Position numbers and translations under genes: made by a program. The notes under the pieces are model-generated. The model was not told where the DNA came from and searched no databases. It was given only the letters and a program-made list of their open reading frames with translations. A DNA stretch of 64,000 nt. Origin: Dyadobacter fermentans DSM 18053 (GTDB lineage: Bacteria > Bacteroidota > Bacteroidia > Cytophagales > Spirosomataceae). Below, piece after piece: positions 38,534-61,421 of the stretch (position 1 is its first letter; each line of letters begins with the position of its first letter). The stretch lies in contig NC_013037.1 of NCBI RefSeq assembly GCF_000023125.1, forward strand, positions 5,806,501 to 5,870,500, given 5' to 3'.

Positions 38534-38683
38534 GGCTGTTTTCTTGTGGTGCGCAGGCGGGTCGGCACTGCCGGATAAGGACTTAACGGAATTGTTTGTC
38601 AAGATAAGGACGCAATTTGAAATATTATTTCCTACAAAGCTAAAATGTCACTATTTTACCTTCAAAAGGCCACGAAAACCGGC

Positions 38684-38846: not shown

Positions 38847-40154
38847 ATGGAAGTTAAGACACCTAACTCGACAAGCACCAGTAACGGATTTTCCGGAGGA
38901 TCAACCATGGACCGAGTTAAACCCAAGAAATTCTGGAATACCAAACGCATCAGCATGATCGGTGGCGGTGTTTTGCTGGCCGCTTTCCTGGTCTATCAGT
39001 TCTTTTTTGCCGATACGAGAAGCAAACTGAACGTGGAGCAGGACAAACTGACCATTTCGGAAGTGAGACAAGGTAAATTCGACGAATTCATCGTCGTGAC
39101 CGGCGTAGTGCAACCCCTGAAAACGATCCAGCTCGACGCGATCGTGGGTGGCTATGTGACGGAAAAACTCATCGAAGGCGGCAACATGGTGAAACAGGGC
39201 GACGTGCTCCTGCGGTTGGAAAACCAGAACCTGAAATTGAGCTTTCTCCAATCGGAAACCGAGGCCAGCCGCCTGGTAAACGATCTTCAAAATACACGTC
39301 AGAACCTGAAAGTGGCGCGTTTTACACTCCAAAAGACATTGAGCGACCTGGATTTCCAGCTAGACCAGGCCAAAGACGCACATGACCGCAACGTAAAACT
39401 TTTCAAGGACAAGGTCATTCCCGAAGCCGATTATCTGAAAACGAAGCGCGATTACGAAAAACTGGTAAGACAGCGTGAAATCGAGATCGAATCGCAGAAA
39501 TACCAGGAAGAAAATGCTAAAATGCAGATTACACAACTGGAAGGCACATTGGCCAGCACGCAGAAAAACGTGGGACTCTGGCGCCAGACGCTCGACAACC
39601 TGGTGGTGAAAGCGCCGGTATCCGGCCTGTTGTCATCCATGAATGTGGAAGTAGGATCGAATATCAACCAAGGGCAGAATATCGGGCAGATCGACGATTT
39701 GAACGGTTTCAAAATGCGCGTCAGCGTGGATGAGCATTATATTTCACGGATTTTTGTGGGTCTGCAAGGCTCGATGGAGTTCAATGGAAAGGATTACGGC
39801 CTGAAAATCATCAAAATTTATCCTGAGGTGCTCAGCGGCCGGTTTGAAGTGGATATGCAGTTCGATAAGGGCGCGCCGGAGCTGATCAAACGCGGGCAGT
39901 CTGCCCCGATCCGCCTGCAACTCGGTCAGCCTTCGCAGGCGACGTTGCTGCCGGTGGGTGGTTTCTTCTCCGAAACGGGTGGAAACTGGGTGTACGTGGT
40001 GGGTGACGATGGCAAGCGCGCCTCGAAACGCAACATTACCCTCGGTCGCAAAAACCCTGAATATTTCGAAGTCCTCGAAGGCTTGAAGCCTGGCGAGAAG
40101 GTGATTACCAGCTCGTATGAGAACTTTGGAGACAATGAAGTGTTGGAATTTTAG
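38847..40154 (+). CDS. Periplasmic adaptor (membrane-fusion protein) of a MacA/HlyD-type ABC system
   Basis: 435 residues: a cytoplasmic tail, one helix (about 37-52), a beta-barrel/lipoyl half (GGYVTEKLIEGGNMVKQGDVLLRLENQNL), a long coiled coil (about 125-250), the second lipoyl half (LDNLVVKAPVSGLLSSMNVEVGSNINQGQ) and a C-terminal membrane-proximal domain. It bridges an inner-membrane ABC complex to an outer-membrane exit duct. ATG 38907 is an alternative start with a better Shine-Dalgarno (GGAGGA) and would drop 20 residues. First gene after the sigma-54 promoter. No TolC-like gene is in the window. Confidence 0.9.
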   Translation: MEVKTPNSTSTSNGFSGGSTMDRVKPKKFWNTKRISMIGGGVLLAAFLVYQFFFADTRSKLNVEQDKLTISEVRQGKFDEFIVVTGVVQPLKTIQLDAIVGGYVTEKLIEGGNMVKQGDVLLRLENQNLKLSFLQSETEASRLVNDLQNTRQNLKVARFTLQKTLSDLDFQLDQAKDAHDRNVKLFKDKVIPEADYLKTKRDYEKLVRQREIEIESQKYQEENAKMQITQLEGTLASTQKNVGLWRQTLDNLVVKAPVSGLLSSMNVEVGSNINQGQNIGQIDDLNGFKMRVSVDEHYISRIFVGLQGSMEFNGKDYGLKIIKIYPEVLSGRFEVDMQFDKGAPELIKRGQSAPIRLQLGQPSQATLLPVGGFFSETGGNWVYVVGDDGKRASKRNITLGRKNPEYFEVLEGLKPGEKVITSSYENFGDNEVLEF

Positions 40155-40158
40155 AAGA

Positions 40159-40325
40159 CTTCGGCTGTCGGCAATCGGCAGTCGGCTTTTTTTGAGAAAA
40201 CTTTTGATTGACAGATTTGATAGTACAATGGCCGACAGCCGACCGCCGACAGCCGACCGCCGAAAGCCGAAATTTAAAACCTTTTACCATAACCCAGGCC
40301 GATAGCCGAAAGCCGATAGCCGACA
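40159..40325. repeat. Heptanucleotide repeat field (GCCGANN) with inverted copies
   Basis: Four heptads ending TCGGC run at 40159-40186. Six direct heptads GCCGACA/GCCGACC/GCCGAAA run at 40231-40272. Four more run at 40298-40325 after a 25-bp spacer. The left block is complementary to the right ones, so a large stem is possible. The field fills most of the gap between the adaptor and ATPase genes. It keeps an open frame running into the ATPase gene, although the ATPase's conserved start is downstream at 40340. Confidence 0.85.
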
Positions 40326-40339
40326 GCCAGAAAAAACAA

Positions 40340-41017
40340 ATGATTAAAATTAACAACATGCACAAGGTGTTTTCTACCGAAGAAGTAGAAACAACTGCCC
40401 TCAACGGGATTGACCTGGAAATTAAGGATGGCGAGTTTGTGGCCATCATGGGACCTTCCGGTTGCGGGAAATCGACGCTGCTGAATATTCTCGGACTGCT
40501 CGATAACCCCAGCGAAGGTTCTTACGAATTCTACGGAACGGAGGTCGCCAAAATGTCCGAACGCCAGCGGGCACAGATCCGCAAGGGCAATATCGGCTTC
40601 GTTTTCCAGAGCTTCAACCTGATCGATGAGCTGACGGTTTATGAAAACGTGGAGCTGCCGCTGCTTTACCTCAAAACGCCCCCGGCAGAAAGAAAGGAAA
40701 AGGTGGAGGCCGCGCTCACCCGCATGAATATGATGCACCGCCGCAACCACTTCCCGCAACAGCTATCGGGTGGTCAGCAACAGCGTACCGCCATTGCCCG
40801 CGCCGTGGTAGCAACCCCGAAAACAATCCTGGCCGATGAGCCGACCGGTAACCTCGACTCTAAAAACGGCGAGGAAGTAATGAACCTGCTCAGCCAGCTG
40901 AATGCAGCCGGAACGACGATCCTCATGGTAACGCACTCGCCTTACGACGCCGGCTTTGCACACCGCGTGGTGAACCTGTTCGATGGCAAGATCGTGACCG
41001 AGAAAATACATGTTTAG
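40340..41017 (+). CDS. ABC transporter ATPase, MacB/LolD type
   Basis: Nucleotide-binding subunit of 225 residues from ATG 40340 (MIKINNMHKVF). Walker A is GPSGCGKST, the Q-loop VFQSFNL, the signature LSGGQQQRTAIARA, Walker B ILADEPTGNLDS and the switch His is in VTHSPYDA. It is separate from its permeases, unlike E. coli MacB, and is the only ATPase gene in the cluster, so it presumably serves several or all of the seven downstream FtsX-type permeases. The 185-bp gap upstream carries the heptad repeats. Confidence 0.95.
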   Translation: MIKINNMHKVFSTEEVETTALNGIDLEIKDGEFVAIMGPSGCGKSTLLNILGLLDNPSEGSYEFYGTEVAKMSERQRAQIRKGNIGFVFQSFNLIDELTVYENVELPLLYLKTPPAERKEKVEAALTRMNMMHRRNHFPQQLSGGQQQRTAIARAVVATPKTILADEPTGNLDSKNGEEVMNLLSQLNAAGTTILMVTHSPYDAGFAHRVVNLFDGKIVTEKIHV

Positions 41018-41140
41018 AAAACCTCCGGCTATTGGCGACGCTTTATAGCAGGAACTTTTGACGCCGGGGCCAACCGCCCTTTGGAATGCAATGTGGGGCC
41101 CTGTGCCAAAGCGAGTTCGTACAATATGCCAAATCTAACC

Positions 41141-41770
41141 ATGAGAAAAATCTTAACCATCCTACTGGCCGGCGTAAGCACGCTGGCCATCGCCCAGAAA
41201 AGGGCTTACCTGAGCAGAAGCATCGATGACGACGGTAAAAAGCTGTCGATTAAAGTATCCGGCGTACTCGACGGCAAGGAAGTAGATGTGAACAAGACGT
41301 TCGATGTGGACGGTATGAGCCAGGAAGACCGCGAGGCGTTGCGGGAACGCGTGCTATCATCCATTGCCGAAGGTAACCTGGATTTGCCGGCACCGAAGGG
41401 CATAAGCCGCGAATCGGTGGCGACCGTGACCCCCAAGCCGCCCGTACCGCCCGTTGCCCCCGAACCGTCGGAAGATGAGCCGGAGACGATGGCATTCTCG
41501 TCCAATGAAGTGAATGCGGAAATGATCTCCTCGGGTAAGGGATTTATCAAAGAACCTGTTTCCAAAGATCCTAAGGGCTTTTCCAAACATGTTCGCTACA
41601 ATTCCGAAACGGGCGAAATGTTTATTAAATACAAATTCATGAAGGATGGCGATGAGTATATCTACGAAAAAACCGTGAATGCCGCCGAGAAATCGGAGAA
41701 AGAGCGGTTGAAGATCATCCGGAACTTTGAAAGCGAAATGGGCTTGCCGGGGAACGGCATGGAAATGTAA
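41141..41770 (+). CDS. Secreted protein of unknown function in the ABC cluster
   Basis: 209 residues from ATG 41141 with signal peptide MRKILTILLAGVSTLAIAQ. The N-terminal part is charged (ISIDDDGKKLSIKVSGVLDGKEVDVNKTFDVDGMSQEDREALRERVLSSI-like). A Pro/Glu-rich linker (about 95-117) and a C-terminal segment with EMFIKYKFMKDGDEYIYEKTVNAAEKSEKERLKIIRNFESEMG follow. No domain recognised. It ends 12 bp before permease 1, so it is firmly in the same transcript; a periplasmic accessory or substrate role is inference. Confidence 0.75.
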   Translation: MRKILTILLAGVSTLAIAQKRAYLSRSIDDDGKKLSIKVSGVLDGKEVDVNKTFDVDGMSQEDREALRERVLSSIAEGNLDLPAPKGISRESVATVTPKPPVPPVAPEPSEDEPETMAFSSNEVNAEMISSGKGFIKEPVSKDPKGFSKHVRYNSETGEMFIKYKFMKDGDEYIYEKTVNAAEKSEKERLKIIRNFESEMGLPGNGMEM

Positions 41771-41782
41771 ACGCGTGAAGGA

Positions 41783-44215
41783 ATGCTTAAAAACTATCTG
41801 AAAATTGCCTGGCGGAATCTGCGTAAACACAAGTTTTACTCGTTTCTGAACATATTCGGTTTGTCGCTCGGGCTGGCGAGCTGCCTGCTCATCACGCTTT
41901 ATGTGGTGGATGAGCTCAGCTACGACCGCTCGTTCGCGCATGCCGAACGTATTTACCGGGTTAATGCAGATATCCGCTTCGGCGGTGCCGATATGTCGCT
42001 TGCCGTAGCGCCCGACCCGCTGGCATTTACATTAAAAAAAGACTATCCGCAGATTGAGCAGGTGGTGAGGCTGCGTGAAAACGGCAGCCAGCTCGTCCGC
42101 AGAGCGGATGCGACTGAAAACCTTAAAGAAGATCGCGTATTCTTTGCGGATTCGACGTTTTTCGAGGTGTTTTCCCTGCCAATGCTGCAAGGCGATCGCC
42201 ATTCAGCGCTCCGCAATCCTAACAGCGTCGTAATTTCCGAAACGGATGCCCGCAAATATTTCGGCGAAACAAACCCGATGGGCAAGGCGCTGATGATTGA
42301 TAACAACACGACGTATACTGTCACCGGCGTCATGCAGGATATTCCTGCGCAGTCGCATATGCGCGATGTGCATATGTTGCTGTCGATGAGCTCAACCGAC
42401 GAAAGCCGGATGAACGCCTGGGGTAGCCATAACTTCAATACGTATATTCTTTTCCGCGAGGGGATTAATGCCAAAGATTTTGAGAAGAACTTCGAAACGA
42501 TATTGCAGAAATACACTTCGAAATGGATTCAAAGCTTCCTGGGCTCTTCGCTGGAAGATGTGCGAAAGTCGGGTAATTACCTGGTCTACACCTTAATGCC
42601 GCTCACGAACATTCACCTGCATTCCGATCGCACGGCGGAGGTCAATGCGAATGGCAACATTCAATATGTGTACATTTTTGCGGTGGTAGCGATCTTCCTG
42701 CTGGCGATCGCGTGTGTGAATTTCATGAACCTCGCCACCGCACGCTCGGCCAACCGGGCCAAAGAGGTGGGCGTACGCAAAGCATTGGGCTCGGAGCGTT
42801 CAGCGCTGGTGAGCCAGTTCCTGACGGAGTCGGTGCTGCTGAGCTTTTTTTCATTGACACTCGCCATTGTGATGGCTTACCTGGCCTTGCCGCTGTTCAA
42901 CAACCTCGCGAGCAAGCAAATCACCTTTCCGATCGCCAATATGTGGTTTTGGTTGATTTTAGTGCTCACCGCGGGCGTCGTGGGCGTGCTTGCGGGAAGT
43001 TACCCGGCGTTTTTCCTGTCTGCCTTTCAGCCACTGAAAGTTTTGAAAAACACCATTCACCTGGAAGGAAGGGGCAGCGGATACCTTCGTAATGCGCTGG
43101 TGGTGTTCCAATTTGTGATCTCGGTGATGCTCATCGTCGGCACGGGCGTCATTTACCGCCAGCTGGACTACATTCAAACCAAAAAGCTTGGGTTTAACAA
43201 AGATCAAATGCTGATTGTGAACGATGCGTATGCATTGAACAACCAGGTAAAGGCATTCAAAGAACAGGTGATGCGGCTTCCGAATGTGGCAAGCGCAACG
43301 GTTACGAGCTTCTTGCCGACACCATCTTCACGCACGGACCATACATTCTTTCCTGTCGGCCAGATGCAGCAGGATAAGGGCATTAATATGCAGAAATGGG
43401 CCGTGGACTACGATTTTGTGAAAACAATGCAGCTTCAAATGGCCGGCGGACGCGCATTCGACGAAGCATTTCCTTCCGACTCGACGGGCATTGTGATCAA
43501 CGAAGCGGCGGCGAAGGTGCTCGGCTACAAGGACCCGGTCGGGAAGAAAATATTCGGTTACGAGGACGCCGCATTGACGAAGCGCGTCGATTATACGATC
43601 ATCGGGGTGGTGAAAAACTTCCATTTCGAATCCCTTCGAAAAAACATCGGCGCATTAAGCCTGATCCTATACAAAAGCTCGGGTTCGGTGGTGTTCCGCA
43701 TGAAAGGCGGCGACGCTCCGCAAACGGTGGCGCAGGTGGAAGCTCTTTGGAAGCAAATGGCGCCGGGTCAGCCATTCAACTACCGGTTTATGGACCAGGA
43801 TTTTGACAATGTTTATCGCAGCGAGCAGCGGGTAGGGCAGATATTCATCACTTTTGCCGCCATTTCGATCATGATCGGCTGTCTGGGCTTGTTCGGGTTG
43901 TCTGCATTCACGGCGGAGCGCCGCACGAAGGAAATCGGCGTACGGAAAGTGCTGGGCGCGAGTGTTGTGAATATCGTGGCGCTGCTATCTAAAGAATTTA
44001 TCAAACTGATCATCATTGCGATCCTGATCGGCAGTCCTATCGCATGGTTCGGCATGAACCACTGGCTAAGCGACTTCGCCTACCACGTCGATCTGGCCTG
44101 GTGGATGTTCGCCGCCGCCGGTCTGCTGGCAGTCGTCATTGCATTGCTCACGGTCAGTTTCCAGAGCGTAAAAGCTGCGCTGATGAACCCGGTGCGGTCA
44201 TTGAAGTCGGAGTAA
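41783..44215 (+). CDS. FtsX/MacB-type ABC permease 1 of 7
   Basis: 810 residues with the duplicated Bacteroidota architecture: N-terminal helix (about 20-40), MacB-like periplasmic domain, FtsX block of three helices (about 290-430), a further helix near 440, a second periplasmic domain, and a last FtsX block (about 690-800). Start MLKNYLKIAWRNLRKHKFYSF. Family motifs are IACVNFMNLATARS, AKEVGVRKALGSERSALVSQFLTES, GLFGLSAFTAERRTKEIGVRKVLGAS and the C-terminal NPVRSLKSE. These permeases do mechanotransmission rather than forming a classical pore. It follows the secreted protein by 12 bp and is followed tail-to-tail by a VapC-like gene. Confidence 0.93.
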   Translation: MLKNYLKIAWRNLRKHKFYSFLNIFGLSLGLASCLLITLYVVDELSYDRSFAHAERIYRVNADIRFGGADMSLAVAPDPLAFTLKKDYPQIEQVVRLRENGSQLVRRADATENLKEDRVFFADSTFFEVFSLPMLQGDRHSALRNPNSVVISETDARKYFGETNPMGKALMIDNNTTYTVTGVMQDIPAQSHMRDVHMLLSMSSTDESRMNAWGSHNFNTYILFREGINAKDFEKNFETILQKYTSKWIQSFLGSSLEDVRKSGNYLVYTLMPLTNIHLHSDRTAEVNANGNIQYVYIFAVVAIFLLAIACVNFMNLATARSANRAKEVGVRKALGSERSALVSQFLTESVLLSFFSLTLAIVMAYLALPLFNNLASKQITFPIANMWFWLILVLTAGVVGVLAGSYPAFFLSAFQPLKVLKNTIHLEGRGSGYLRNALVVFQFVISVMLIVGTGVIYRQLDYIQTKKLGFNKDQMLIVNDAYALNNQVKAFKEQVMRLPNVASATVTSFLPTPSSRTDHTFFPVGQMQQDKGINMQKWAVDYDFVKTMQLQMAGGRAFDEAFPSDSTGIVINEAAAKVLGYKDPVGKKIFGYEDAALTKRVDYTIIGVVKNFHFESLRKNIGALSLILYKSSGSVVFRMKGGDAPQTVAQVEALWKQMAPGQPFNYRFMDQDFDNVYRSEQRVGQIFITFAAISIMIGCLGLFGLSAFTAERRTKEIGVRKVLGASVVNIVALLSKEFIKLIIIAILIGSPIAWFGMNHWLSDFAYHVDLAWWMFAAAGLLAVVIALLTVSFQSVKAALMNPVRSLKSE

Positions 44216-44216
44216 G

Positions 44217-44654
44217 TTATTGGAAGTCTAAATATGGGTTAATGATGGTTAGCTGATTTTCGACGACCATGCAATGTTGAAAATCTTCTGAGTAAAGGAT
44301 ATTACATCCGACTTGTAGTGCCGATGCAACTATAATGCTGTCAAAAACCTGGAAGTCATACCTGATGACTAGTTCCCTTGCTTTAAGAACTGTTTGATGA
44401 TCCATTCCAATCACTGTGCAGCATTCGGTAACGATCAGGCAATGATTGATAAGGTCAGTTTTGGGAGCACGAAGCAATCGGTGTAATACATTAATATATT
44501 CAGAGATTACCTGACTCGATAAAATTGGTACACCCCGGACTATCTTTTGAGAAATCTCACTCTTATAAGTTGCGGTGTCCTCATGGAGATAAACAAGAAT
44601 ATTGGTATCGACAGCAATTTTGTCAGTCGTAATTGTTTGCTTCATTCCTATCAA
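44217..44654 (-). CDS. PIN-domain ribonuclease toxin (VapC-like)
   Basis: 145 residues. The PIN acidic residues are visible as D16 in AVDTNILVY, E52 in VISEYINVL, D105 in YDFQVFDSIIVASAL and the SED at 122-124. These predict an Mg-dependent endoribonuclease, typically cutting initiator tRNA or rRNA. The start could also be ATG 44645. Its 5' end overlaps the antitoxin gene. The pair is inserted on the opposite strand between permeases 1 and 2, its stop lying one base from the permease 1 stop. Confidence 0.88.
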   Translation of the reverse strand: MIGMKQTITTDKIAVDTNILVYLHEDTATYKSEISQKIVRGVPILSSQVISEYINVLHRLLRAPKTDLINHCLIVTECCTVIGMDHQTVLKARELVIRYDFQVFDSIIVASALQVGCNILYSEDFQHCMVVENQLTIINPYLDFQ

Positions 44655-44850
44655 ATTTCCAGTTAGTAAGGTCTACTTTCAGTTTGGATAGGGAATCGTT
44701 GAGTTTTTTCATTCTGGTATCAATATCGATCGGATCTGTGGATCGGATTTCCATAGCGCTCACCTCGATCTGCTTTCCTACCATGTTTCTTGGCAGGGTT
44801 AGCACAAGCGAGTTGGTTTTCGGGACAATGATTTTCCTGACCTGTTCCAT
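44623..44850 (-). CDS. Antitoxin partner of the PIN toxin
   Basis: 75 residues from ATG 44850. The N-terminal beta motif IIVPKTNSLVLTLPRNMVGKQIEVSAME is of the AbrB/VapB-like kind found before PIN toxins in Bacteroidota. A polar C-terminal tail (LNDSLSKLKVDLTNWKFDRNEANNYD) probably wraps the toxin. Its 3' end overlaps the toxin gene by about 30 bp. An upstream ATG at 44892 is less likely. It would neutralise the toxin and repress its own promoter in the 81-bp gap to permease 2. Confidence 0.8.
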   Translation of the reverse strand: MEQVRKIIVPKTNSLVLTLPRNMVGKQIEVSAMEIRSTDPIDIDTRMKKLNDSLSKLKVDLTNWKFDRNEANNYD

Positions 44851-44931
44851 AACATTCGAATTAGCAGAAATCAAATATATCCAATAACACATCGCACATC
44901 CTATTTATTCCACCATCAATGAACAAACGGT

Positions 44932-47292
44932 ATGCTTAGAAATTATCTGAAAATCGCGTGGCGGAATTTGTTGAAAAACAAGACGTTCAGTTCCATTAAT
45001 ATCCTCGGCCTGGCGCTAGGGATGGCTTGCAGCCTGCTGATCATGCTTTGGGTCCAGGATGAGATTAAAATGGACCGTTTCCATGAGAACGATGCCCGGT
45101 TATACTCCGTGATGGAGAACCAGCATTATTCCGGGGAGATTAACACCTATCCGGCCACACCGGGCATTCTGGCCGAGAATATCGTGAAGGATATTCCCGA
45201 AATAGAAAAGGCAAGCCAGATCCTTTGGGAGGAAACCCCGGTTTTGCTCGTAGGAAATGTGTTCGACAATGAAAAGGGACGCTTCGTGCAGGGTGATTTC
45301 CTGACGATGTTTTCGTTTAAACTCACCCACGGCGACGCGAAAACGGCATTGAAGCGCCCCGACGGTATCGTGATTTCGCAGAAAATTGCCGATAAATATT
45401 TCAAAGGCGTGGACCCGATCGGAAAAGCCATGCGTGTGGATAATAAGCATGACGTGGTGGTGACCGGTGTGCTCGACGAGGTTTCGCGTTACTCTTCAAT
45501 GAAGTTCGACTTCCTGATGAGTTACGACGTATGGCAGAAAGGTGCCCCGTGGTCCAAAGAGTGGGGTAATAACGGCCCGCGCTGCGCCGTGATGCTCGCG
45601 AAGAATGCGGATATCGATAAGGTGAATGCCAAAATCGAGGATTATATCAAAACCAAAAACAAAGACAGCAACGTGGATCTTTTCCTGATCCATTACGGCG
45701 AATCGTATCTCTATTCAAACTGGGAAGCCGGCCAGCAGAATGGTGGCCGCATCGAGTACGTGCGCATGTTTACGGTTGTGGCGGTGTTTATCCTCATTAT
45801 TGCCTGCATTAATTTCATGAACCTCGCCACGGCGCGCTCCGTGAAACGCGCGAAGGAGGTGGGGCTGCGCAAAGTGGTAGGTGCCTATAAGGCGAGCCTG
45901 ATCGGGCAGTTTATGGGCGAGTCGGTGCTGATTACCTTGCTCTCGCTCGTGGTGGCGGTAGCGATTGTGCTCGTGTTGTTGCCTGGCTTCAATTCGCTGA
46001 CGGAAAAGCAATTAGCGCTCGATTTTCTCGATCCTACGCTCTGGGCATTGCTGCTGCTGCTCACGCTCATTACGGGGCTGATCGCCGGCAGTTACCCGGC
46101 ATTGTTTATGTCGTCGCTCAACCCCGTTACGATCCTCAAAGGTGCATTGAAATTCAAACCGAGCGCCGCCTATTTCCGGCAGGGGCTGGTGGTGTTCCAA
46201 TTCGGCCTCTCCATCGTGCTGATCCTCTCGATGATCGTCATTTACCGGCAAATCGACTTTATCCAGCACAAAAACCTGGGTTTCAGCCAGGAGAACCTGC
46301 TTTACATTCCGGATATTGAAAATACCATGACTACCAACTTCGATGCATTCAAACAGGCGTTGGAAAGCGAGCCGGGAATCAAATCGGTGGCACGGTCGCA
46401 GGCGAACCCGCTCGCGTACGGCAGCTCCACCATGGGCGTGAGCTGGCCCGGAAAGGATACCACCAAGCAGTTGCTTTTTAATGTGAATCCGGTGGGTTTC
46501 GATTTTATCAAAACAATGGGTATCAGGCTGCTCGACGGCCGCGATTTCAGTCCGTCGTTCGGGACCGATACTTCCAACTACCTCGTGAACGAGGCCGCTG
46601 CTAAAAAGATCGGTTATAAAGACCCGGTAGGCAAAGAGCTTACCATGTGGGGAAGGAAAGGGAAGATCATCGGATTAATGAAGGACTTTCATATCGGTTC
46701 GCTGCACGTGGCCATTGAACCGCTCATTATCAACCTGCAACCTAAAAAAGAGGCCTGGGGCGTAGGTATGATCCGCGCGGAGGCCGGCAAAACGCAGCAG
46801 GCCATCGAGAGTACCGAAAAGGTGTTCCGGCGGTACAATGCGGGTGTGCCATTCAAATATTACTTCGCTGATGAGGAGTTTGCGAACTTGTATAAGGCGG
46901 AAATGGTCGTGAGCAAGCTATCCAACTACTTTGCATTTCTGGCCATATTCATCTCCTGCCTGGGCCTGTTCGGATTGGCGGCATTTACAGCCGAGCAGCG
47001 CACGAAGGAAATTGGTGTCCGCAAAGTGCTGGGCGCCAGCGTGACCAACCTGGTGGGGATGCTCTCGGCCGATTTTGTGAAGCTGGTCGGGGTGGCGGCG
47101 GTTATCGCGTTCCCGGTTGCCTGGTATTTCCTGAACGGGTGGCTGGAAAAATATGCCTTCCGGATCGATATGGAGTGGTGGTATTTTGCTGTTGCCGGCA
47201 TTGCCGCATTGCTGATCGCATTGTTTACCGTCAGCTTCCAGGCTATCAAAGCTGCGCTGATGAACCCTGTTAAATCGTTGAAATCCGAATAA
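44932..47292 (+). CDS. FtsX/MacB-type ABC permease 2 of 7
   Basis: 786 residues, same duplicated layout. Start MLRNYLKIAWRNLLKNKTFSS; IACINFMNLATARSVKRAKEVGLRKVVGAYKASLIGQFMGES; GLFGLAAFTAEQRTKEIGVRKVLGAS; C-terminus NPVKSLKSE. It is close to permeases 1 and 4 in the N-terminal helix and in both FtsX blocks, while the periplasmic domains differ. The antitoxin gene upstream is divergent, so permease 2 needs its own promoter or read-through past the antisense toxin pair. Permease 3 follows after 25 bp. Confidence 0.93.
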   Translation: MLRNYLKIAWRNLLKNKTFSSINILGLALGMACSLLIMLWVQDEIKMDRFHENDARLYSVMENQHYSGEINTYPATPGILAENIVKDIPEIEKASQILWEETPVLLVGNVFDNEKGRFVQGDFLTMFSFKLTHGDAKTALKRPDGIVISQKIADKYFKGVDPIGKAMRVDNKHDVVVTGVLDEVSRYSSMKFDFLMSYDVWQKGAPWSKEWGNNGPRCAVMLAKNADIDKVNAKIEDYIKTKNKDSNVDLFLIHYGESYLYSNWEAGQQNGGRIEYVRMFTVVAVFILIIACINFMNLATARSVKRAKEVGLRKVVGAYKASLIGQFMGESVLITLLSLVVAVAIVLVLLPGFNSLTEKQLALDFLDPTLWALLLLLTLITGLIAGSYPALFMSSLNPVTILKGALKFKPSAAYFRQGLVVFQFGLSIVLILSMIVIYRQIDFIQHKNLGFSQENLLYIPDIENTMTTNFDAFKQALESEPGIKSVARSQANPLAYGSSTMGVSWPGKDTTKQLLFNVNPVGFDFIKTMGIRLLDGRDFSPSFGTDTSNYLVNEAAAKKIGYKDPVGKELTMWGRKGKIIGLMKDFHIGSLHVAIEPLIINLQPKKEAWGVGMIRAEAGKTQQAIESTEKVFRRYNAGVPFKYYFADEEFANLYKAEMVVSKLSNYFAFLAIFISCLGLFGLAAFTAEQRTKEIGVRKVLGASVTNLVGMLSADFVKLVGVAAVIAFPVAWYFLNGWLEKYAFRIDMEWWYFAVAGIAALLIALFTVSFQAIKAALMNPVKSLKSE

Positions 47293-47317
47293 ACGCCGCC
47301 AACCGGCACCATTAGCC

Positions 47318-49699: not shown

Positions 49700-49837
49700 A
49701 TCGGGCAAAATATGGTTCGCGAATTTCGAGTGACCACTTCTCAGGTCCGCTAGAACGTTAATTGCCGAATATTGATTAAGTTAGTGTTGTGTTAATGCAG
49801 GCATTCCAATGCCACTCTCTTAATTGATCTTCTGAAA

Positions 49838-50074: not shown

Positions 50075-50379
50075 ACAAGCATTATCAAATCCTCTGGGAT
50101 ACCGTTGCGCTGGTTCAGTTCAAGGAGATTTTTGTGTATATCCGTAAAGATTCCTACCAGAACGCCTTGAAAGTAAAGAATAGAATCGTCAAATGCGTTG
50201 ACAATCTCAAATCGGAACCCAGGCGATACAAGCCTGATCAATTCAGACTGGATGGCGATAAAGCTTTTAGGTCGTTCGAGGTGTATAATATCAGAATCAC
50301 TTATTTCATCGACGACGCCAATCTGAAAGTGAATATCATCCGGGTATGGAGCACGAAACAAGAGCCGTTAACATATTAA
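50068..50379 (+). CDS. RelE/ParE-superfamily toxin
   Basis: 103 residues with the compact fold of the family: ILWDTVALVQFKEIFVYIRKDSYQNALKVKNRIVKCVDNLKSEPRRYKPDQF, FRSFEVYNIRITYFIDDANLKVNIIRVWSTKQEP. The C-terminal strand ending RVWSTKQEP is typical. Whether it cleaves ribosome-bound mRNA (RelE) or poisons gyrase (ParE) cannot be told. The module is embedded in the permease array, on the same strand, and is followed by a long perfect hairpin. Confidence 0.86.
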   Translation: MVNKHYQILWDTVALVQFKEIFVYIRKDSYQNALKVKNRIVKCVDNLKSEPRRYKPDQFRLDGDKAFRSFEVYNIRITYFIDDANLKVNIIRVWSTKQEPLTY

Positions 50380-50397
50380 TCACGCAGTCCATTACTG

Positions 50398-50429
50398 AAC
50401 AAAGGTGTCCACTTTCGGACACCTTTGTT
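50398..50429. promoter_or_regulatory. Perfect 13-bp hairpin carrying the TGTCC-N6-GGACA dyad
   Basis: AACAAAGGTGTCC pairs exactly with GGACACCTTTGTT around ACTTTC, 18 bp after the toxin stop. It lacks a real U-tract, so it is a poor terminator. It contains TGTCC-N6-GGACA, the core of the second dyad at 38704-38721. A weak -24/-12-like CTGGTAC..TTCAT lies 65 bp further on (50487-50503), nearly the same offset as at 38785. Confidence 0.5.
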
Positions 50430-50539
50430 ACTTTATATGTATGGTAACTAACTGATTCATAGAGCTATAAATTGCATTTTGCATCGCTGGTACAATTATT
50501 CATTTTCAAAGTCGAGGAATGCAATCCCTAACGTTAGCC

Positions 50540-52996: not shown

Positions 52997-53050
52997 TGAA
53001 TCGGGAGGAAAGGGAGGAAGTCCTCCATCCTCCCATAAAAAAGCTTTCAT

Positions 53051-55465
53051 ATGTTCAAAAACTATTTCAAAATCGCGCTGCGGAACCTTTGGAAAAGCAA
53101 GGGTTATGCATTTATCAATGTCGTGGGCCTGGCCGTGGCGTTTTGTGTGAGCGTTTTCCTATTTCTCACGGCCTACTTTGCGCTTTCTTACGACAACTTT
53201 CATGCCGACAAGGACAGGATTTACGAGCCGTATTTTTTCGCCAACGATCCCGAACGGGTGAACCGCACGGCCTCGATGCCGTTCCCGATCACCCCGGCAT
53301 TAAAGGCCGAATATCCTGAGATTGAAGCCGTCGCACGGGTAGTCAACGGATCGGACGTGGTGGAGTACAAGGGCAAGTATCTGGATAAGAATATCAAGTT
53401 CACCGAGCCCGATTTCTTCAAAATCTTCTCGTTTCCATTTCTTCAGGGCAATGCGCAAACGGCTTTCCAGGACCTGAGCAGCATTATCATCACTGAAAAC
53501 ATGGCGAAAGCGGTTTTCGGAGCGGAAGACCCGATGGGCAAAAGCGTGCAGATAGGGTTGGAGGGGAGTAAAAAGAGCTACGTCGTCACGGGCGTGCTGG
53601 CGGATTTTCCTGCCAACTCGTCCCTGCAATTCGATGCATTTTTGCGCAGCGAGAATGCAGGCGGCTACCAGCAGCAAAAGGACCAGTGGGACGCATTTTC
53701 GCATAATATATTCCTGAAATTGAAACCCGGTGTGGATAAGCTGGCATTTGAACGAAAGCTGAAACCTTTCACCGCCAAATATTTTGCCGAAACGGTCACG
53801 AAGCTTAAAAAGAAAGGTGCAAAGCCCGACGAAAGAGGCGATTTGTATGCATTGCGCCTGCAAAAACTGGAAGATGTTCATTTTAACCGTGAAATATCCG
53901 GCGGTAAGGAAGGCTCACTGATTTATGCGCTGATGGGCATCGGGCTGTTTATTTTGCTTATCGCTTGTATCAATTTTATCAACCTGAATGTAGCGCGGTC
54001 GTTCATCCGTGCGCGTGAGGTGGGCGTGCGCAAGTCGCTGGGTGCATTGAAACAGCAGCTTTTCTTCCAGATCTGGGGCGAAGCGGGCGTGGTGTGTTTT
54101 CTGGGTTTCCTTGCCGGTGTGATACTGGCCGTCCTGCTTGTGCCGTCGTTCAACGCAACATTCCGGTCCAAGCTGACGCTGGATTACATTTTCGAACCCG
54201 ACAAAATCGCATTGCTCGTTGGCCTGTTCCTTTTTGTGACCCTCATCGCCGGCGGTTATCCTGCCCTGCAAATGTCGCGGTTCAATGCGGTGCAAGTTTT
54301 GAAAGGCAAAGTATCGCTCAAAAAGCCTGGGATTCTCAGGAATTCGCTGATTGTGGCACAGTTTGCGCTTTCGAGCCTGCTTATCTGCTGCACGATCATC
54401 GCCATGCAGCAGGTGGATCACCTGCGTAGCCAGCCGCTTGGTTTTCAGAAAGAAGAGGTGATCAGCATTCCGGTCGGCAACAAGGTCGACGGGCAAACTG
54501 CGCTGCGCCGGATGAGAAACCGCCTTGCCGGCGATCCGAATGTGGTAAGTGTTACAGGCTCAGGCGTGAACCTCGGTATGGGCCTCGACAGAAGCAGTTC
54601 CCGCAGTTCTATTGGTTTTACATTTAAAGAACGTGAGATTGAAACCGACTGGCTGCATATTAGTTATGATTATCTCAAAACATTGAATATCAAATTAATA
54701 GCCGGCCGCGAGTTCAACCCTGCATATCCAACCGACTCCATGGGCCGGGTGATCATCACCGAAAGCATGGCCAAAGCCATCGGCGAGCAGGACCCTGTCG
54801 GCAAATTCTTTCAGACAGATACCGCGGGCATCAAGCATCAGATCATCGGAGTGGTGCCGGATTTTAACCTGTATTCATCCAAAGCCGAAAAGAAACCGGT
54901 TACAATGTACCTTTCGAATAACGAAGGCATCGGCTACATCTTTGTGCGCGTGACGCCGCAGAGCCTGGCCACTTCGATGGATAAGCTGAAAGGCATTTGG
55001 AAGGAAATTACGCCGGAATCGGAGTTTATCGGGTCGTTCATCGATGAGAACACGAACAACTGGTATATGGAGGAGCAGCGGCTTTCGCAGATTTTCAGTC
55101 TGGCATCCGCGGTGGCGGTGATATTGTCCTGCCTGGGGCTGTTTGCAGTAGCGCTGATCGTCATGGAGCAGCGTACGAAGGAAATCGGTGTGCGCAAAGT
55201 GTTGGGCGCGAGCATCGGCAGCCTGGTGTTCGTACTGTCCCGGGATTTTGTAAAACTGGTGCTCATCGCCATTTTGATCTCCACGCCCGCCGCCTGGTAT
55301 CTGATGCAATTGTGGCTCGATCACTATCCTTACCGCATTGAAATCAGTCCGCTGGTTTTCGTAGGAGTAGGGTTGGTGGCCGTGCTGGTAGCCATCGCCA
55401 CGGTGAGTTTCCAGAGCATTAAAGCCGCATTGATGAACCCGGTGAAATCGCTGCGGAGCGAGTAG
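53051..55465 (+). CDS. FtsX/MacB-type ABC permease 5 of 7
   Basis: 804 residues. Start MFKNYFKIALRNLWKSKGYAF; IACINFINLNVARSFIRAREVGVRKSLGALKQQLFFQIWGEA; GLFAVALIVMEQRTKEIGVRKVLGAS; C-terminus NPVKSLRSE. It diverges from permeases 1, 2 and 4 in the first FtsX block and in the second (AVALIVMEQ instead of GLxAFTAEQ). It follows permease 4 by 54 bp, with the short inverted repeat GGAGGA/TCCTCC in the gap, and precedes permease 6 by 42 bp. Confidence 0.93.
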   Translation: MFKNYFKIALRNLWKSKGYAFINVVGLAVAFCVSVFLFLTAYFALSYDNFHADKDRIYEPYFFANDPERVNRTASMPFPITPALKAEYPEIEAVARVVNGSDVVEYKGKYLDKNIKFTEPDFFKIFSFPFLQGNAQTAFQDLSSIIITENMAKAVFGAEDPMGKSVQIGLEGSKKSYVVTGVLADFPANSSLQFDAFLRSENAGGYQQQKDQWDAFSHNIFLKLKPGVDKLAFERKLKPFTAKYFAETVTKLKKKGAKPDERGDLYALRLQKLEDVHFNREISGGKEGSLIYALMGIGLFILLIACINFINLNVARSFIRAREVGVRKSLGALKQQLFFQIWGEAGVVCFLGFLAGVILAVLLVPSFNATFRSKLTLDYIFEPDKIALLVGLFLFVTLIAGGYPALQMSRFNAVQVLKGKVSLKKPGILRNSLIVAQFALSSLLICCTIIAMQQVDHLRSQPLGFQKEEVISIPVGNKVDGQTALRRMRNRLAGDPNVVSVTGSGVNLGMGLDRSSSRSSIGFTFKEREIETDWLHISYDYLKTLNIKLIAGREFNPAYPTDSMGRVIITESMAKAIGEQDPVGKFFQTDTAGIKHQIIGVVPDFNLYSSKAEKKPVTMYLSNNEGIGYIFVRVTPQSLATSMDKLKGIWKEITPESEFIGSFIDENTNNWYMEEQRLSQIFSLASAVAVILSCLGLFAVALIVMEQRTKEIGVRKVLGASIGSLVFVLSRDFVKLVLIAILISTPAAWYLMQLWLDHYPYRIEISPLVFVGVGLVAVLVAIATVSFQSIKAALMNPVKSLRSE

Positions 55466-55507
55466 CGGACCATTTTGACATCTATTCAGAAGTAGAAACA
55501 GGAAGCC

Positions 55508-57916
55508 ATGATCAAAAATTATCTAACGACTTCATTCAGAAACCTTCGGCGTAACTGGAATTTTACGCTGATCAACATCACCGGCCTGACCCTGAGCCTG
55601 GCCTGCTGCCTGCTGATCTTTTTTACAGTCCGGTACGAGTTGAGCTTTGACAGCCATCACCAGCATGCCGACCGCCTTTACCGGCTTCTCAATCAGAATG
55701 TTAATGATGGGGAAAAAGGGTTCTCGGCCGGCATTCCGCTTCCTGCATTGGCTGCTCTCCGCAACGACTATCCCGAGATCCGGGAGCATGTGGCCTGCAC
55801 ATACGGCATGCGTGAGACGCTGATTACGGTGACGGACGGAAAGGAAAAGAAGAAGTTTTCGGACCCTGGCTATAATGTGGCGTTTGTCGGTCCCGAGTAT
55901 TTCACGATGTTCGATTACCGGTGGCTGAAAGGTTCGCCGTCGCAAGCGCTCAAAAACCCCGGCTCGGTGGTATTGACGGAAGGAGACGCGCTAAAATACT
56001 TTGGTAATGCCGATCCGATCGGGAAAACCATCCGGGTGAGAAACCAGATGGACTTCGTCGTGACGGGCGTCGTTGCCAACCCGCCTGCAACGACCAATTT
56101 GCCTTTTACCACCATGCTTTCGTTCGGCTCGCTGAAAGAATTCGGCGCGTTTACGAACTGGGACGATTGGATATCTTCCTACGGCGGCGGACAGATGTAC
56201 ATCATGCTGCCCGAGCATGTGAGCGAGGCGCAGTTTGAAAAGCAATTACTCGCATTCAACAAAAAATACCGCGATCCCAAGGATGCCGAAACGCTGCGGT
56301 TCGTTTTGCAGCCGTTGAAAGACATTCATTTTGCCACCAAAATGGGCAACTACGCGAACCGCTCGATCAGCAAGGGAATGATCTGGACCATGTCGCTGGT
56401 CGGGATATTTATCCTTGTTATCGCCTGCGTGAACTTTGTAAACCTCGCCACCGCACAGGCGCTACGCCGCTCGCGCGAGGTGGGCGTGAGGAAGGTACTG
56501 GGAAGCACGAGAGGGCAGTTACTGCGCCAATATTTCTCCGAAACGGGCATTATCACCACCTTCTCGGTGATCGTAGCACTCATTGCCGCGCAGTTATTAC
56601 TTCCCTACATCAGCAATACGCTCAACATCAATGCGGACAATGTGGTGTTCTTCAAAGACCCGTGGATATTGCTGTGCTGCATCGCATTAACGCTTGTTAC
56701 GACTTTCCTGGCGGGTTTTTACCCGGCGCTGGTGGTATCGGGTTACCAGCCGATACTCGCATTGAAAGGTAAAATGACCAAGAATGGGAGCAGCCAGACT
56801 AATCTGCGGAGGGGGCTGATCGTACTGCAATTCTCGATTTCCCAAGTGATTCTGATCGGCACGCTTATCGCTTACAGCCAGATGAAGTATTTCAGATCCA
56901 TGGACCTGGGTTTTGAAAAAGACGAGATCGTGACCATCGCGATCCCGGATGAAAAGCAGCTGGAAACACTGAGCCAGAAGGTAACGGCCATTCCCGGAGT
57001 TAAATCCATCACGTACAGTGCATTCACGCCGATGTCGCGAAGCAATTGGCAAACCGGGTTCAAATACGAAAATGATCCCGAATTCCTGGAATTTGATATC
57101 GTAATGCGCCCTGCGGACACGTCGTACTTCCACACATTCGGACTGAAAATGGCTGCGGGAAGGATGTACCTTCCGTCGGATACGGCGCGGGAATATGTCG
57201 TGAACGAGGCATTTGCCCGCAAACTCGGTTTTAAAGACCCCGAGGGCATCATCGGCAAGCGGCTGACGATCGGCGGCAGCGACTTCAAGTTGCCGATCGT
57301 GGGCGTTGTGAAAAATTTCAATACTTACACATTACACCAGGAAATCATTCCCTGCGTAATGGCTTCGATGCGAAACAATTACCGCCTGCTGAACGTGAAA
57401 CTGGATCGGCACGCGGGGCTCGACCAGGTCCACCGCATCGAAAAAGCCTGGACGGAATCATTTCCGGATTATCTGTTCAAATACACTTTCTACGACCAGA
57501 CGCTCGACAGCTTTTACGAAAAAGAAGCCAAGCTCTTTTCGCTCTTCCAGATACTGAGCGCCATTGCAATATTCGTCGGCTGCCTGGGCCTTTATGGCGT
57601 GGTAGCGTTTATGGCCGAGTCGCGTACGAAAGAAATGGGCATTCGGAAGGCCATTGGCGCATCGGCGATGAATATTTTCGGCCTTTTCTCGGTCGATTTT
57701 ATCAAGCTGGTGGTGATTGCGCTCGTCATTGCTTCACCTATCGCCTGGTATTTTATGGACCAGTGGTTGCAGGATTTTAGTTACAAAGTCAATATCAGCT
57801 GGTGGCTGTTTGTGGCTGCTGGTGTGGCGGCGGTGCTTATTGCACTGGTTACGATCAGTTTCCAAAGCATCAAAGCGGCGCTTACGAATCCCGTAACGGC
57901 CCTAAGGAGTGAATAA
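55508..57916 (+). CDS. FtsX/MacB-type ABC permease 6 of 7
   Basis: 802 residues. Start MIKNYLTTSFRNLRRNWNFTL; IACVNFVNLATAQALRRSREVGVRKVLGSTRGQLLRQYFSET; GLYGVVAFMAESRTKEMGIRKAIGAS; C-terminus NPVTALRSE. It is the most divergent member of the array at both the N-terminal box and the C-terminal signature, so it is probably not a recent duplicate of its neighbours. 42 bp separate it from permease 5 and 81 bp from permease 7. Confidence 0.93.
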   Translation: MIKNYLTTSFRNLRRNWNFTLINITGLTLSLACCLLIFFTVRYELSFDSHHQHADRLYRLLNQNVNDGEKGFSAGIPLPALAALRNDYPEIREHVACTYGMRETLITVTDGKEKKKFSDPGYNVAFVGPEYFTMFDYRWLKGSPSQALKNPGSVVLTEGDALKYFGNADPIGKTIRVRNQMDFVVTGVVANPPATTNLPFTTMLSFGSLKEFGAFTNWDDWISSYGGGQMYIMLPEHVSEAQFEKQLLAFNKKYRDPKDAETLRFVLQPLKDIHFATKMGNYANRSISKGMIWTMSLVGIFILVIACVNFVNLATAQALRRSREVGVRKVLGSTRGQLLRQYFSETGIITTFSVIVALIAAQLLLPYISNTLNINADNVVFFKDPWILLCCIALTLVTTFLAGFYPALVVSGYQPILALKGKMTKNGSSQTNLRRGLIVLQFSISQVILIGTLIAYSQMKYFRSMDLGFEKDEIVTIAIPDEKQLETLSQKVTAIPGVKSITYSAFTPMSRSNWQTGFKYENDPEFLEFDIVMRPADTSYFHTFGLKMAAGRMYLPSDTAREYVVNEAFARKLGFKDPEGIIGKRLTIGGSDFKLPIVGVVKNFNTYTLHQEIIPCVMASMRNNYRLLNVKLDRHAGLDQVHRIEKAWTESFPDYLFKYTFYDQTLDSFYEKEAKLFSLFQILSAIAIFVGCLGLYGVVAFMAESRTKEMGIRKAIGASAMNIFGLFSVDFIKLVVIALVIASPIAWYFMDQWLQDFSYKVNISWWLFVAAGVAAVLIALVTISFQSIKAALTNPVTALRSE

Positions 57917-57997
57917 TGAGTGCATTAGGATGCAACTTGGAAGTACGATTTTACATCTTTCGGCAAATGCATTTCTAAACTCAATTTCAACCTGGCC

Positions 57998-60373
57998 ATG
58001 ATCAAGAATTACCTCGTAATCGCGCTCCGCAACCTTCTTAAAAACAAAGTTTATTCCCTGATCAACATCGTAGGACTGGCAGTGGGCATTGCCGTCACGA
58101 TGCTGATCGGGCTGTGGGTTTGGGATGAACTCTCTTACAACAAGTACCACAAAAACTACGACCGCGTCGTGCAGGCGTGGATCAGCCAGACTTTCAACGG
58201 GCAAACGGGCACGGGTACCGCGGTTTCGATTCCGTCCGTAACCGAAATGGCCACAAAATACCCGGCCGATTTCAGGCATACCGCGCTGGCTTCGTGGAAT
58301 TTTGGGCATTTGCTCACCAATGGCGATAAGAAGATCAACAAAACCGGGATGTGGGCGCAGCCGTCGTTCCCGGAAATGCTGGGCCTGAAAATGATCCGCG
58401 GCGATTATGATGCATTGAAAAACCCGGGTTCGGTGGTGATCTGCGAGTCGCTGGCCAAGGCACTTTTCGGTGACGCCGACCCGCTGAACAAGGCACTTAA
58501 ACTGGATATCAAGAAGGACGTCAAGGTGACGGGCGTTTATGAGGATATTCCCTTTAATTCAAGTTTTAACGAACTGTACCTCATCTTGCCGTGGAGCGAT
58601 TACCTGCAATCCGAAGGTTGGGTGAAAAATGCACAGACCCAATGGGGTAACCACTCGTTCCAATGGTTTGCACAGGTGGCCGACCATGCCGATATCGCGA
58701 CGGTTTCGCGAAAAATCCGCGACGTGGAAATGCCCCACGCATTCTCCAAAACCGACAAGCCGCAATACATGCTCCATCCAATGAGCCGCTGGCACCTGTA
58801 TTCCGACTTTAAAGACGGCCAGAATGTCGGCGGGCGGATTCAGTTTGTGTGGCTTTTTGGGATTATCGGAGTGTTTGTGCTGCTGCTGGCCTGTATCAAT
58901 TTCATGAACCTGAGCACGGCCCGTTCCGAAAAGCGCGCGAAAGAGGTCGGTATCCGCAAGTCGATCGGTTCGCTGAAAAGCCAGCTGGTATTTCAGTTTC
59001 TCAGTGAGTCCTTTCTTGTGGTCATGTTTGCGCTGCTACTGGCGATCCTGATCGTACTCATATCGCTGCCTGCATTCAACGACCTGGCCGGCAAGCATGT
59101 CCGGTTTCCATTCTTCTACTGGCAGTTTTGGCTGGGGCTGGTGGCATTTGCATTGCTTACGGGCCTGGTAGCGGGCAGCTATCCGGCTTTTTACCTGTCG
59201 TCGTTCAATCCGCTGTCGGTGCTGAAAGGGACATTCCGGGTAGGCAAGTATTCGGCCGTTCCGCGCAAGGTGATGGTGGTCATGCAGTTCACAGTTTCCA
59301 TCACGCTGATCATCGGGACGATCATCGTTTTCCAGCAAATCCAGCATGCCAAGGACCGGCCGGTGGGTTACGACCGGCAGGGACTTTTGCAAATCAATAT
59401 TTCGCCTAATATGTGGGGCAAATATTATCCGCTGCGTGACGAACTGCTCAAAACAGGGGCTGTTTTTGAAATGAGCGAATCGTCGAGCCCTACTACCGGC
59501 ATTTATTCGAACCAGATCGGCTTTGAATGGGAGGGCATGGAGCCCGGCTCGGTGCCGCTGTTCGGGACCATCGCCTGTACGCACGATTTCGGCAAGACCA
59601 TCGGCTGGAAAATCATAGAAGGCCGCGACTTTTCCCGCGATTATTCAACGGACACTTCTGCCTTCGTGCTGAACGAATCGGCCGTGAGGCTGACCGGAAT
59701 TAAAAGCATCATCGGTAAAACGATCCGATACAACGGCAAACCGATGCATGTAGTGGGGGTGATCAAGGACATGGTGATGCAATCGCCCTACGAGCCGGCG
59801 GTGCCGACGATTTTTATGGTCAATTATGAATGGGCCAACCTGATCAACGTCAAACTTACACCCGGCACGCCGGTGGACAAGGCACTGAAAAAAGTGGAAG
59901 CCGTTTTCCGCAAACACGATCCCGACTCTCCGTTCGAATTCAAATTTGCCGATGAGGAATACGATGCGAAATTCAGGGCCGAAGAGCGGATCGGGAAGCT
60001 GGCGCGGGTGTTTGCGGTGCTGGCGGTGTTCATTTCGTGCCTTGGATTGTTTGGCCTGGCAGCCTACACGGCGGAGCAGCGCACGAAGGAAATCGGCATC
60101 CGCAAGACCCTGGGCGCGAGCGTAGCCCAAATGTGGGCGATGCTGTCCAAAGAATTTATTTACCTCGTCATTATATCCTGTGTTATCGCTTCGCCGATCG
60201 CCCTTTACTTCCTGAACGACTGGCTCAAAAAATACCAGTACCACATCGAGCTGAGCTGGGTAGTGTTCGTCGTGGCAGCATTCCTTGCGGTAGCGATCAC
60301 CCTGCTAACCGTCAGCTTCCAGGCGATCAAAGCCGCATTAACCAACCCGGTAAAGTCGTTGCGGAGTGAGTAG
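57998..60373 (+). CDS. FtsX/MacB-type ABC permease 7 of 7
   Basis: 791 residues. Start MIKNYLVIALRNLLKNKVYSL; LACINFMNLSTARSEKRAKEVGIRKSIGSLKSQLVFQFLSES; GLFGLAAYTAEQRTKEIGIRKTLGAS; C-terminus NPVKSLRSE. The first periplasmic domain has a distinct VQAWISQTFNGQTGTGTAVSIPSV segment. It ends the array; a damaged VapBC-like pair on the opposite strand follows 10 bp later. Like the others it lacks its own ATPase domain. Confidence 0.93.
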   Translation: MIKNYLVIALRNLLKNKVYSLINIVGLAVGIAVTMLIGLWVWDELSYNKYHKNYDRVVQAWISQTFNGQTGTGTAVSIPSVTEMATKYPADFRHTALASWNFGHLLTNGDKKINKTGMWAQPSFPEMLGLKMIRGDYDALKNPGSVVICESLAKALFGDADPLNKALKLDIKKDVKVTGVYEDIPFNSSFNELYLILPWSDYLQSEGWVKNAQTQWGNHSFQWFAQVADHADIATVSRKIRDVEMPHAFSKTDKPQYMLHPMSRWHLYSDFKDGQNVGGRIQFVWLFGIIGVFVLLLACINFMNLSTARSEKRAKEVGIRKSIGSLKSQLVFQFLSESFLVVMFALLLAILIVLISLPAFNDLAGKHVRFPFFYWQFWLGLVAFALLTGLVAGSYPAFYLSSFNPLSVLKGTFRVGKYSAVPRKVMVVMQFTVSITLIIGTIIVFQQIQHAKDRPVGYDRQGLLQINISPNMWGKYYPLRDELLKTGAVFEMSESSSPTTGIYSNQIGFEWEGMEPGSVPLFGTIACTHDFGKTIGWKIIEGRDFSRDYSTDTSAFVLNESAVRLTGIKSIIGKTIRYNGKPMHVVGVIKDMVMQSPYEPAVPTIFMVNYEWANLINVKLTPGTPVDKALKKVEAVFRKHDPDSPFEFKFADEEYDAKFRAEERIGKLARVFAVLAVFISCLGLFGLAAYTAEQRTKEIGIRKTLGASVAQMWAMLSKEFIYLVIISCVIASPIALYFLNDWLKKYQYHIELSWVVFVVAAFLAVAITLLTVSFQAIKAALTNPVKSLRSE

Positions 60374-61396: not shown

Positions 61397-61421
61397 GCAA
61401 TAAAGAAATAGCCATGAACGC

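Follow-up and report, generated by a model that had tools for sequence, protein, structure and literature searches.

A stretch of 64,000 nucleotides from Dyadobacter fermentans DSM 18053 (the window, positions 5806501-5870500 of a 6.97-Mb single-contig genome that is labelled G000 among the genomes compared here) contains a periplasmic adaptor gene, an ABC (ATP-binding cassette) ATPase gene, and a long run of genes for FtsX/MacB-type permeases. Several different kinds of sequence evidence support a shared motor, and we consider it probable that these genes encode a MacAB-like Type VII ABC system, controlled by σ54, in which one ATPase-adaptor core would energize many exchangeable permeases. 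It also seems likely, if with rather less assurance, that this one core and one σ54 regulator energize about 28 exchangeable permeases genome-wide and that relatives possess similar sets.

In the proposed mechanism, the regulator (together with a kinase encoded beside it in relatives) would switch on the adaptor-ATPase unit and many linked and dispersed permease units through the operator TGTCCRN4YGGACA and -24/-12 promoters. Each permease would be one chain of two halves, with 8 helices, two periplasmic MacB-like domains, and two coupling loops; one such chain plus an ATPase dimer would make up one transporter. The single adaptor-linked ATPase would drive any permeases that are expressed, what is handled would depend on their divergent periplasmic domains, and the adaptor, probably with a co-regulated TolC, would pass the substrate outward. 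By analogy with Type VII relatives, the substrates are most likely envelope peptides or lipids of amphipathic character, which would be extracted and exported.

The permease array and its conservation

The MacA/HlyD-type adaptor (38847-40154, plus strand) matches RND_mfp above cut-off as well as HlyD_3, and in the PDB it matches MacA and putative MacA chains with E values of 2e-9 to 1.4e-6. A MacB/LolD-class ABC ATPase follows on the same strand (ATPase1, 40208-41017, with a likely start at 40340); its Walker A, LSGGQ, and Walker B motifs were read by eye, and its score against LolD (TIGR02211) is 217.7 bits, below the cut-off of 307.75. The original prediction, which had placed this adaptor, this ATPase, a small secreted protein, and seven intact plus-strand permeases of 786-818 residues in the window, is borne out on all of these points, save that P4 has 825 residues (818 from a second ATG at 50540). 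The permease open reading frames (ORFs) lie at 41783-60373: P1 (41783-44215, 810 residues, 9 orthologues in relatives), P2 (44932-47292, 786 residues, 7 orthologues), P3 (47318-49699, 793 residues, 12 orthologues), P4 (50519 or 50540 to 52996, 14 orthologues), P5 (53051-55465, 804 residues, 13 orthologues), P6 (55508-57916, 802 residues, 11 orthologues), and P7 (57998-60373, 791 residues, 11 orthologues). Gaps of 716 bases after P1 and 819 bases after P3 make it likely that the array is split into several transcription units.

All seven permeases have a duplicated architecture, with two MacB_PCD and two FtsX stretches apiece, and their hydrophobic segments number 8 (overlaps were merged by eye; P6 shows 8 directly). 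The terminal boxes described earlier are present in a loose form, P6 having KNYLTTSFRN...NPVTALRSE and P3 ending in DPVRSLRSE. P6 and P5, already singled out as the most divergent, have mean identities to the other six of 33.3% and 33.7%, compared with 34.9-37.7% for the remaining permeases.

The array of seven is real, but its scale had been understated. P8-P11 carry it on beyond the window (genome positions 5872310-5883859, 13 kb past the edge) to a total of 11, and the genome as a whole contains 28 intact duplicated permeases: the 11 of the array, two beyond P11 at 38 and 44 kb, and 15 that are dispersed. One further permease is split into two ORFs. Seventeen Dyadobacter genomes show 31-39 permease matches each. 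In a permease tree of 245 sequences, in which relatives are represented by their array permeases with their dispersed permeases left out, there are 36 clades (at least two members, at most one per genome) plus 9 single sequences, and the clades of P1 to P11 each have a support of 1.0. When the gene order of the 11 array orthologues was compared with that in 14 relatives, 376 of 385 comparisons were concordant and 9 discordant, and dN/dS for the 11 own array permeases versus up to three relatives, where dS is unsaturated, is 0.04-0.14. Because of these orthologue clades, the conserved order, and the low dN/dS, the sequences indicate that the array is an old set kept under purifying selection rather than a recent amplification, in agreement with the earlier argument against a single recent tandem amplification.

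These data bear directly on the alternative, raised originally alongside a shared ATPase, that the array is an expanded paralogue reservoir; as read here, it would be a store for recombination in which few members are active. Array size does vary, from 5 permeases behind the adaptor in G005 to about 23 in G009 (in G014 the array is broken across two contigs, and no adaptor is seen in the G024 stretch), with members gained and lost, and split or short permease genes are seen in G009, G013, G003, and at the own locus L085. However, the array permeases are individually conserved orthologues under the low dN/dS and in the concordant order given above, and promoters with operators lie inside the array itself; the reservoir idea is weakened accordingly and is very improbable. 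A missing array, or one shrunk to a single permease, was looked for in close relatives as evidence against the original prediction and was not seen in the Dyadobacter arrays that were read; two distant congeners with few matches are taken up below. Eight of the 15 own dispersed permeases group (support at least 0.97) with permeases in the array regions of relatives, so permeases appear to shift between cis and trans positions.

One ATPase-adaptor core and many permeases

Of the two options set out originally, the shared ATPase is the better supported, by coupling residues, co-occurrence, unlinked arrays, and the operator. In the YbbAP structure (PMC12646458), the ATPases are bound by coupling helices between transmembrane helices (TM) 2 and 3 and between TM8 and TM9. 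The corresponding coupling-loop segments of the array permeases rank among their best-conserved parts, with conservation values of 0.73 and 0.77, compared with 0.52 and 0.51 for the periplasmic domains, and in the dispersed permeases the values are 0.77 and 0.78. Twelve coupling-loop residues are invariant in all 28 own permeases: R, E, G, R, K, and G in half 1 and R, E, G, R, G, and A in half 2. The N-terminal box and C-terminal tail of the permeases are conserved to a similar degree.

None of the 15 dispersed permeases has an ATPase match of at least 100 bits within 58 kb, the nearest such matches being 59 to 743 kb away; one weak 28-bit match lies 8.6 kb from the dispersed permease L093. 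This absence would also suit the notion that most of the permeases no longer transport and act as ATPase-independent envelope scaffolds or sensors, with the ATPase serving P1 or a few others, and orphan duplicated permeases are known from Acidobacteria as the TIGR03434 'ADOP' family. Yet coupling-loop conservation is no lower in dispersed than in array permeases and exceeds that of the periplasmic domains, and the adaptor-less genomes that were examined lack permease sets, which makes the loss of transport an improbable explanation.

The case for a shared motor is strengthened by the joint occurrence of its parts. The adaptor (E ≤ 1e-60) is single-copy in D. fermentans and in 15/15 other Dyadobacter genomes, is 85-95% identical in named Dyadobacter species, and is found in 119 of 150 family genomes with one copy each, which marks it as old. 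For the family sample the best 6 permease candidates per genome were scored, making permease numbers lower limits; 118 genomes have both adaptor and permease, one has the adaptor only, 6 have a permease match only, and 25 have neither. In a phylum sample of 198 genomes (requested completeness at least 95%, best 4 permease candidates per genome scored) the adaptor is present in 54, of which 44 have at least three permease matches, compared with 0 of the 144 genomes that lack it. Within genus g10, G025 has the adaptor and 15 permease matches, while the larger, adaptor-less genomes G060, G076, and G101 show one permease match each, located beside an ATPase. All four adaptor-less genomes that were examined retain other members of the ATPase class (best identity 45-54%) but lack the 67-97% orthologue of ATPase1, which four others have.

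The adaptor and ATPase1 travel together. In 80 named loci, a subset of a larger match list chosen by genus names (Spirosomaceae, Chitinophagaceae, Saprospiraceae, and others), an ATPase1 orthologue lies within 4 kb after the adaptor in all 79 that have room for it. The ATPase likewise follows the adaptor in 20/20 family loci (the G042 locus is a 5-kb stub), 18 of which have at least one permease after the ATPase; none lies within 18-19 kb in G041 and G103. Of the 66 named loci with at least 9 kb downstream, three permeases are visible in 49, two in 8, one in 4, and none in 5. Permeases are also found far from the core: G041 has 22 permease matches, most on contigs other than that of the adaptor; G103 has at least 33, with an array at least 214 kb from the adaptor; and in G025, where a single permease is linked, an array of 12 lies 2 Mb off. 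At E ≤ 1e-45, these large unlinked arrays contain no ATPase match of the class.

A common operator and σ54-type promoters

Divergent from the adaptor is the gene for an NtrC-type σ54 response regulator (37163-38602, minus strand) with receiver (PF00072), Sigma54_activat (PF00158), and Fis helix-turn-helix (PF02954) domains. Neither this regulator nor the operator figured in the original prediction. A relative of more than 50% identity is present in 63 of the 80 named loci, some of which are incomplete, and a kinase gene adjoins the regulator in relatives. Between regulator and adaptor lies the palindrome TGTCCGATAACGGACA (38705-38720), the proposed enhancer site of the regulator, followed by a σ54-like -24/-12 promoter of the adaptor unit, TTGGCATAGTGATTGG (38785-38800, plus strand); a second operator, TGTCCACTTTCGGACA (50406-50421, within a 13-pair hairpin at 50398-50429), and a second σ54-like promoter, TGGTACAATTATTC (50488-50501, plus strand), precede P4.

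The operator was first spotted in a hairpin scan. The exact TGTCCRN4YGGACA occurs six times in the genome, each time preceding the adaptor, P4, P11, or a dispersed permease unit; the chance of six sites falling in 30 x 700 bases is about 7.5e-16, although this figure counts the two window sites in which the motif was discovered. One of the six lies within the 5' end of the PadR frame, read at its greatest possible length, ahead of the permease at L080. Some dispersed permeases (L080, L226) have an N-terminal extension and an upstream PadR regulator and lie under this same operator.

The association extends to other genomes. An operator with at most one mismatch is found within 350 bases of the adaptor in 69 of 73 named loci, compared with 5 of 365 random windows; 7 of the 80 loci were dropped because the adaptor was not at base 10001 or the locus was too short, and of the four misses, L193 and L195 were scored at the wrong place, the L193 adaptor having an exact upstream operator. 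Among 63 non-identical operator-gene pairs, TGGYAY follows the operator in 61, at a median of 63 bases (4.5/63 in shuffles), and a second box (TTG/TTC) is present in 52 (0.8 in shuffles). In G103, 15 of 16 operator sites precede units of the system: 12 permease units (two read in sequence, ten placed by coordinates), the adaptor, a homologue of the secreted protein, and an ATPase2/TolC unit, which is discussed below. The adaptor-less genomes G060, G101, and G097 have 1, 0, and 0 sites, and a backward control pattern gave 1, 4, 2, 0, 0, and 0 sites in G000, G041, G103, G060, G101, and G097.

In D. fermentans, 34 ORFs (33 permease ORFs and the adaptor) were tested for an operator combined with TGGYA. 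With at most one mismatch in the operator, 11/34 are positive versus 0/59 other genes; with at most two, 15/34 versus 2/59, one of the two being ATPase2; and with at most three, 16/34 versus 7/59. An enhancer-like site is found together with a -24/-12 promoter at a set distance, as in a σ54 regulon, and the set has the appearance of an enhancer-binding-protein regulon whose operator would be bound by the adjacent regulator. In general form, σ54 control of these permeases is already in print: PMC12316311 describes an enrichment of σ54 promoters at FtsX-like permeases (COG0577) of Bacteroidia.

Promoter motifs were also examined by themselves. The strict consensus TGGCAC-N5-TTGC was rejected, since it occurs upstream of permeases in 0/13, 0/20, 0/217, 0/85, and 0/183 cases and of adaptors in 2/67. 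An unguided two-box count, also set aside, was dominated by AAGC/AATC-type words that resemble the conserved 3' terminus of the permease gene upstream, and a primary-sigma-type box, TAnnTTTG, was rejected because it fell below controls (30/310 versus 132/671). TGGYA-N4-TTTG and TGGYA-N5-TTTG alone are moderately enriched, in 17 and 11 of 310 compared with 7 and 7 of 671, and TGGYA-N4/5-TTTG is found in 5/20 dispersed relatives versus 0.09 in shuffles; the looser TGGYA-N5-WTTG shows no enrichment (13/310 versus 49/671). These partial enrichments made sense once the operator had been found in the hairpin scan.

The small secreted protein (41081-41770, plus strand), an accessory member of the locus, has 27 other homologous ORFs among the compared loci (some loci counted twice), mostly from Dyadobacter. 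It was rejected as a core part, being labelled in few loci outside that genus. It has an unlinked homologue in G103 (L221:3336-3908, minus strand, 43% identity over 103 residues) that sits downstream of an exact operator, which suggests that the secreted protein belongs to the operator regulon.

A second ATPase, related transporters, and significance

A number of observations weigh against a single shared motor under one regulator. In the phylum sample, 56 of the 144 adaptor-less genomes have one or two permease matches, ten of them with a best E ≤ 1e-60. In the family sample, G049 and G058 (66% and 63% complete) show at least 6 matches without an adaptor, G060, G076, G101, and G135 show 1-2 without one, and the distant congeners G134 and G160 hold just 2 and 4 matches (best 6 scored). 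Conversely, G031 (L141, 3.6 Mb) keeps adaptor and ATPase with zero duplicated permease matches at E ≤ 1e-40. The related genomes are non-independent, so p-values overstate the evidence. In G041, two permeases share the contig and strand of the adaptor at a distance of about 27 kb downstream; of the three operator sites in this genome, which are no more numerous than its backward-control sites, one belongs to the adaptor, one to a permease, and one lies inside an unrelated gene. The sixteenth G103 site (G103:C2:988560-988575), an exact operator that precedes a gene judged by eye to be ExbB-like, falls outside the model. Finally, the 15 of 34 own ORFs noted above are the only ones that themselves carry operator (at most two mismatches) and promoter; some, not all, of the others are in likely operons.

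The strongest rival concerns the motor itself. The claim that there is a single ATPase holds for the array within the window, but a second ATPase of the same class (ATPase2) lies about 74 kb downstream, beside another permease and a TolC gene that is about 73 kb away. In a tree of the ATPases (some loci counted twice), an adaptor-linked clade of 107 sequences is separate from a second clade of 19 (support 0.999), which includes ATPase2 from D. fermentans, G004, G005, and G025; close relatives occur in G041 and G103. The motor may therefore be heterodimeric, or be split between adaptor-associated ATPase1 and TolC-associated ATPase2, which would divide the permeases; either way it would be shared yet not one ATPase. 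In favor of this are the separate clade, the linkage in Lacihabitans (L158), where TolC is joined to the locus in the order ATPase2, TolC, regulator, kinase, adaptor, ATPase1, permeases, and the position of ATPase2 directly after ATPase1 in Saprospiraceae loci such as L181 and L193. An exact operator stands 1.7 kb upstream of ATPase2 in the G103 unit, whose other genes include TolC and a second adaptor-like gene; the own ATPase2 unit has a 2-mismatch operator, and because the permease halves differ they could accommodate two different ATPases. On the other hand, an ATPase2-like gene lies within the 10-kb flanks of just 15 of the 80 named loci, and the permease right beside the own ATPase2 fits a dedicated pair. 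We regard the two-ATPase arrangement as unlikely, and continue to favor one adaptor-linked ATPase as the motor.

Other genes are interspersed with the array. A PIN-like toxin ORF (44217-44654, minus strand, by eye) lies between P1 and P2 and has a 42% relative at the same position in G011. At 61025-62988 there is a small secreted protein, an anti-sigma-like ORF (so called by position, with no Pfam match), and an extracytoplasmic function (ECF) sigma factor identified by Pfam; such a trio also occurs within the arrays of G011, G009, and G024. Directly before P11 is a gene for a Wzi-like outer-membrane protein (PF14052; L009:11777-13258, genome positions 5879777-5881258), found at the same place in G005, G009, G011, and G014.

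By permease sequence, the nearest families are ADOP and then DarB. ADOP (TIGR03434) is the best full-length family match of the array permeases, and it shares with them the duplicated MacB_PCD-FtsX chain of about 800 residues, large paralogous sets, and forms with PadR and an N-terminal extension. ADOP permeases mostly have no ATPase gene beside them, which is true of the 15 dispersed permeases and untrue of the array head, where adaptor and ATPase lead and a σ54 operator links the set. The window permeases score 289-344 bits against an ADOP cut-off of 622.3, a cut-off exceeded in 0/150 family and 0/198 phylum genomes. The darobactin exporter DarBCD (NF038008, NF038010, NF038007), with one permease per system, is similar in its duplicated-length permease, adaptor, and separate ATPase, and the matches are significant; all three subunits nevertheless lie below cut-off (110-173/700 bits for DarB, 185/450, and 274/375). 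With MacAB-TolC the system has in common a MacA-like adaptor, MacB-like periplasmic and FtsX domains, and a conserved loop after TM2. MacB is one half-size (4-TM) permease fused to its own ATPase, whereas here the ATPase and the 8-TM duplicated permease are separate genes, with one ATPase and many permeases. At L094 (genome positions 6738000-6753000), a MacAB-like system has an adaptor, a TolC, an ATPase, and a σ54 regulator to itself, along with two half-size permeases.

In YbbAP-TesA (PMC12646458), too, the permease is duplicated and carries a pair of periplasmic domains and a pair of coupling helices, at two ATPases to one permease, but YbbP has 10 membrane helices rather than 8. The D. fermentans genome has a separate YbbP-like duplicated permease at L095 (genome positions 6860000-6867000), beside a class ATPase and a TesA-like hydrolase (by eye). 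For sharing as such, the parallel is with the multitask ATPases MsmX and MsmK, one of which can energize several ABC transporters encoded elsewhere (PMC7658222); those serve Type I sugar importers. Here too, permeases are found elsewhere without an ATPase of their own. A literature search found no shared motor for Type VII systems and no description of such an arrangement.

If the shared motor is real, the choice of permease would let the cell retune what is exported or extracted, and the system would be the export counterpart of the multitask importer ATPases. It would also offer a test bed for how one ATPase recognizes many permeases in the mechanotransmission (Type VII) class. At first sight the permeases seem to be dozens of transporter genes, each on its own and without a known use; should motor and regulon be shared, this large unexplained gene family of the Bacteroidota would instead be one modular system, which could be probed by a two-gene deletion.

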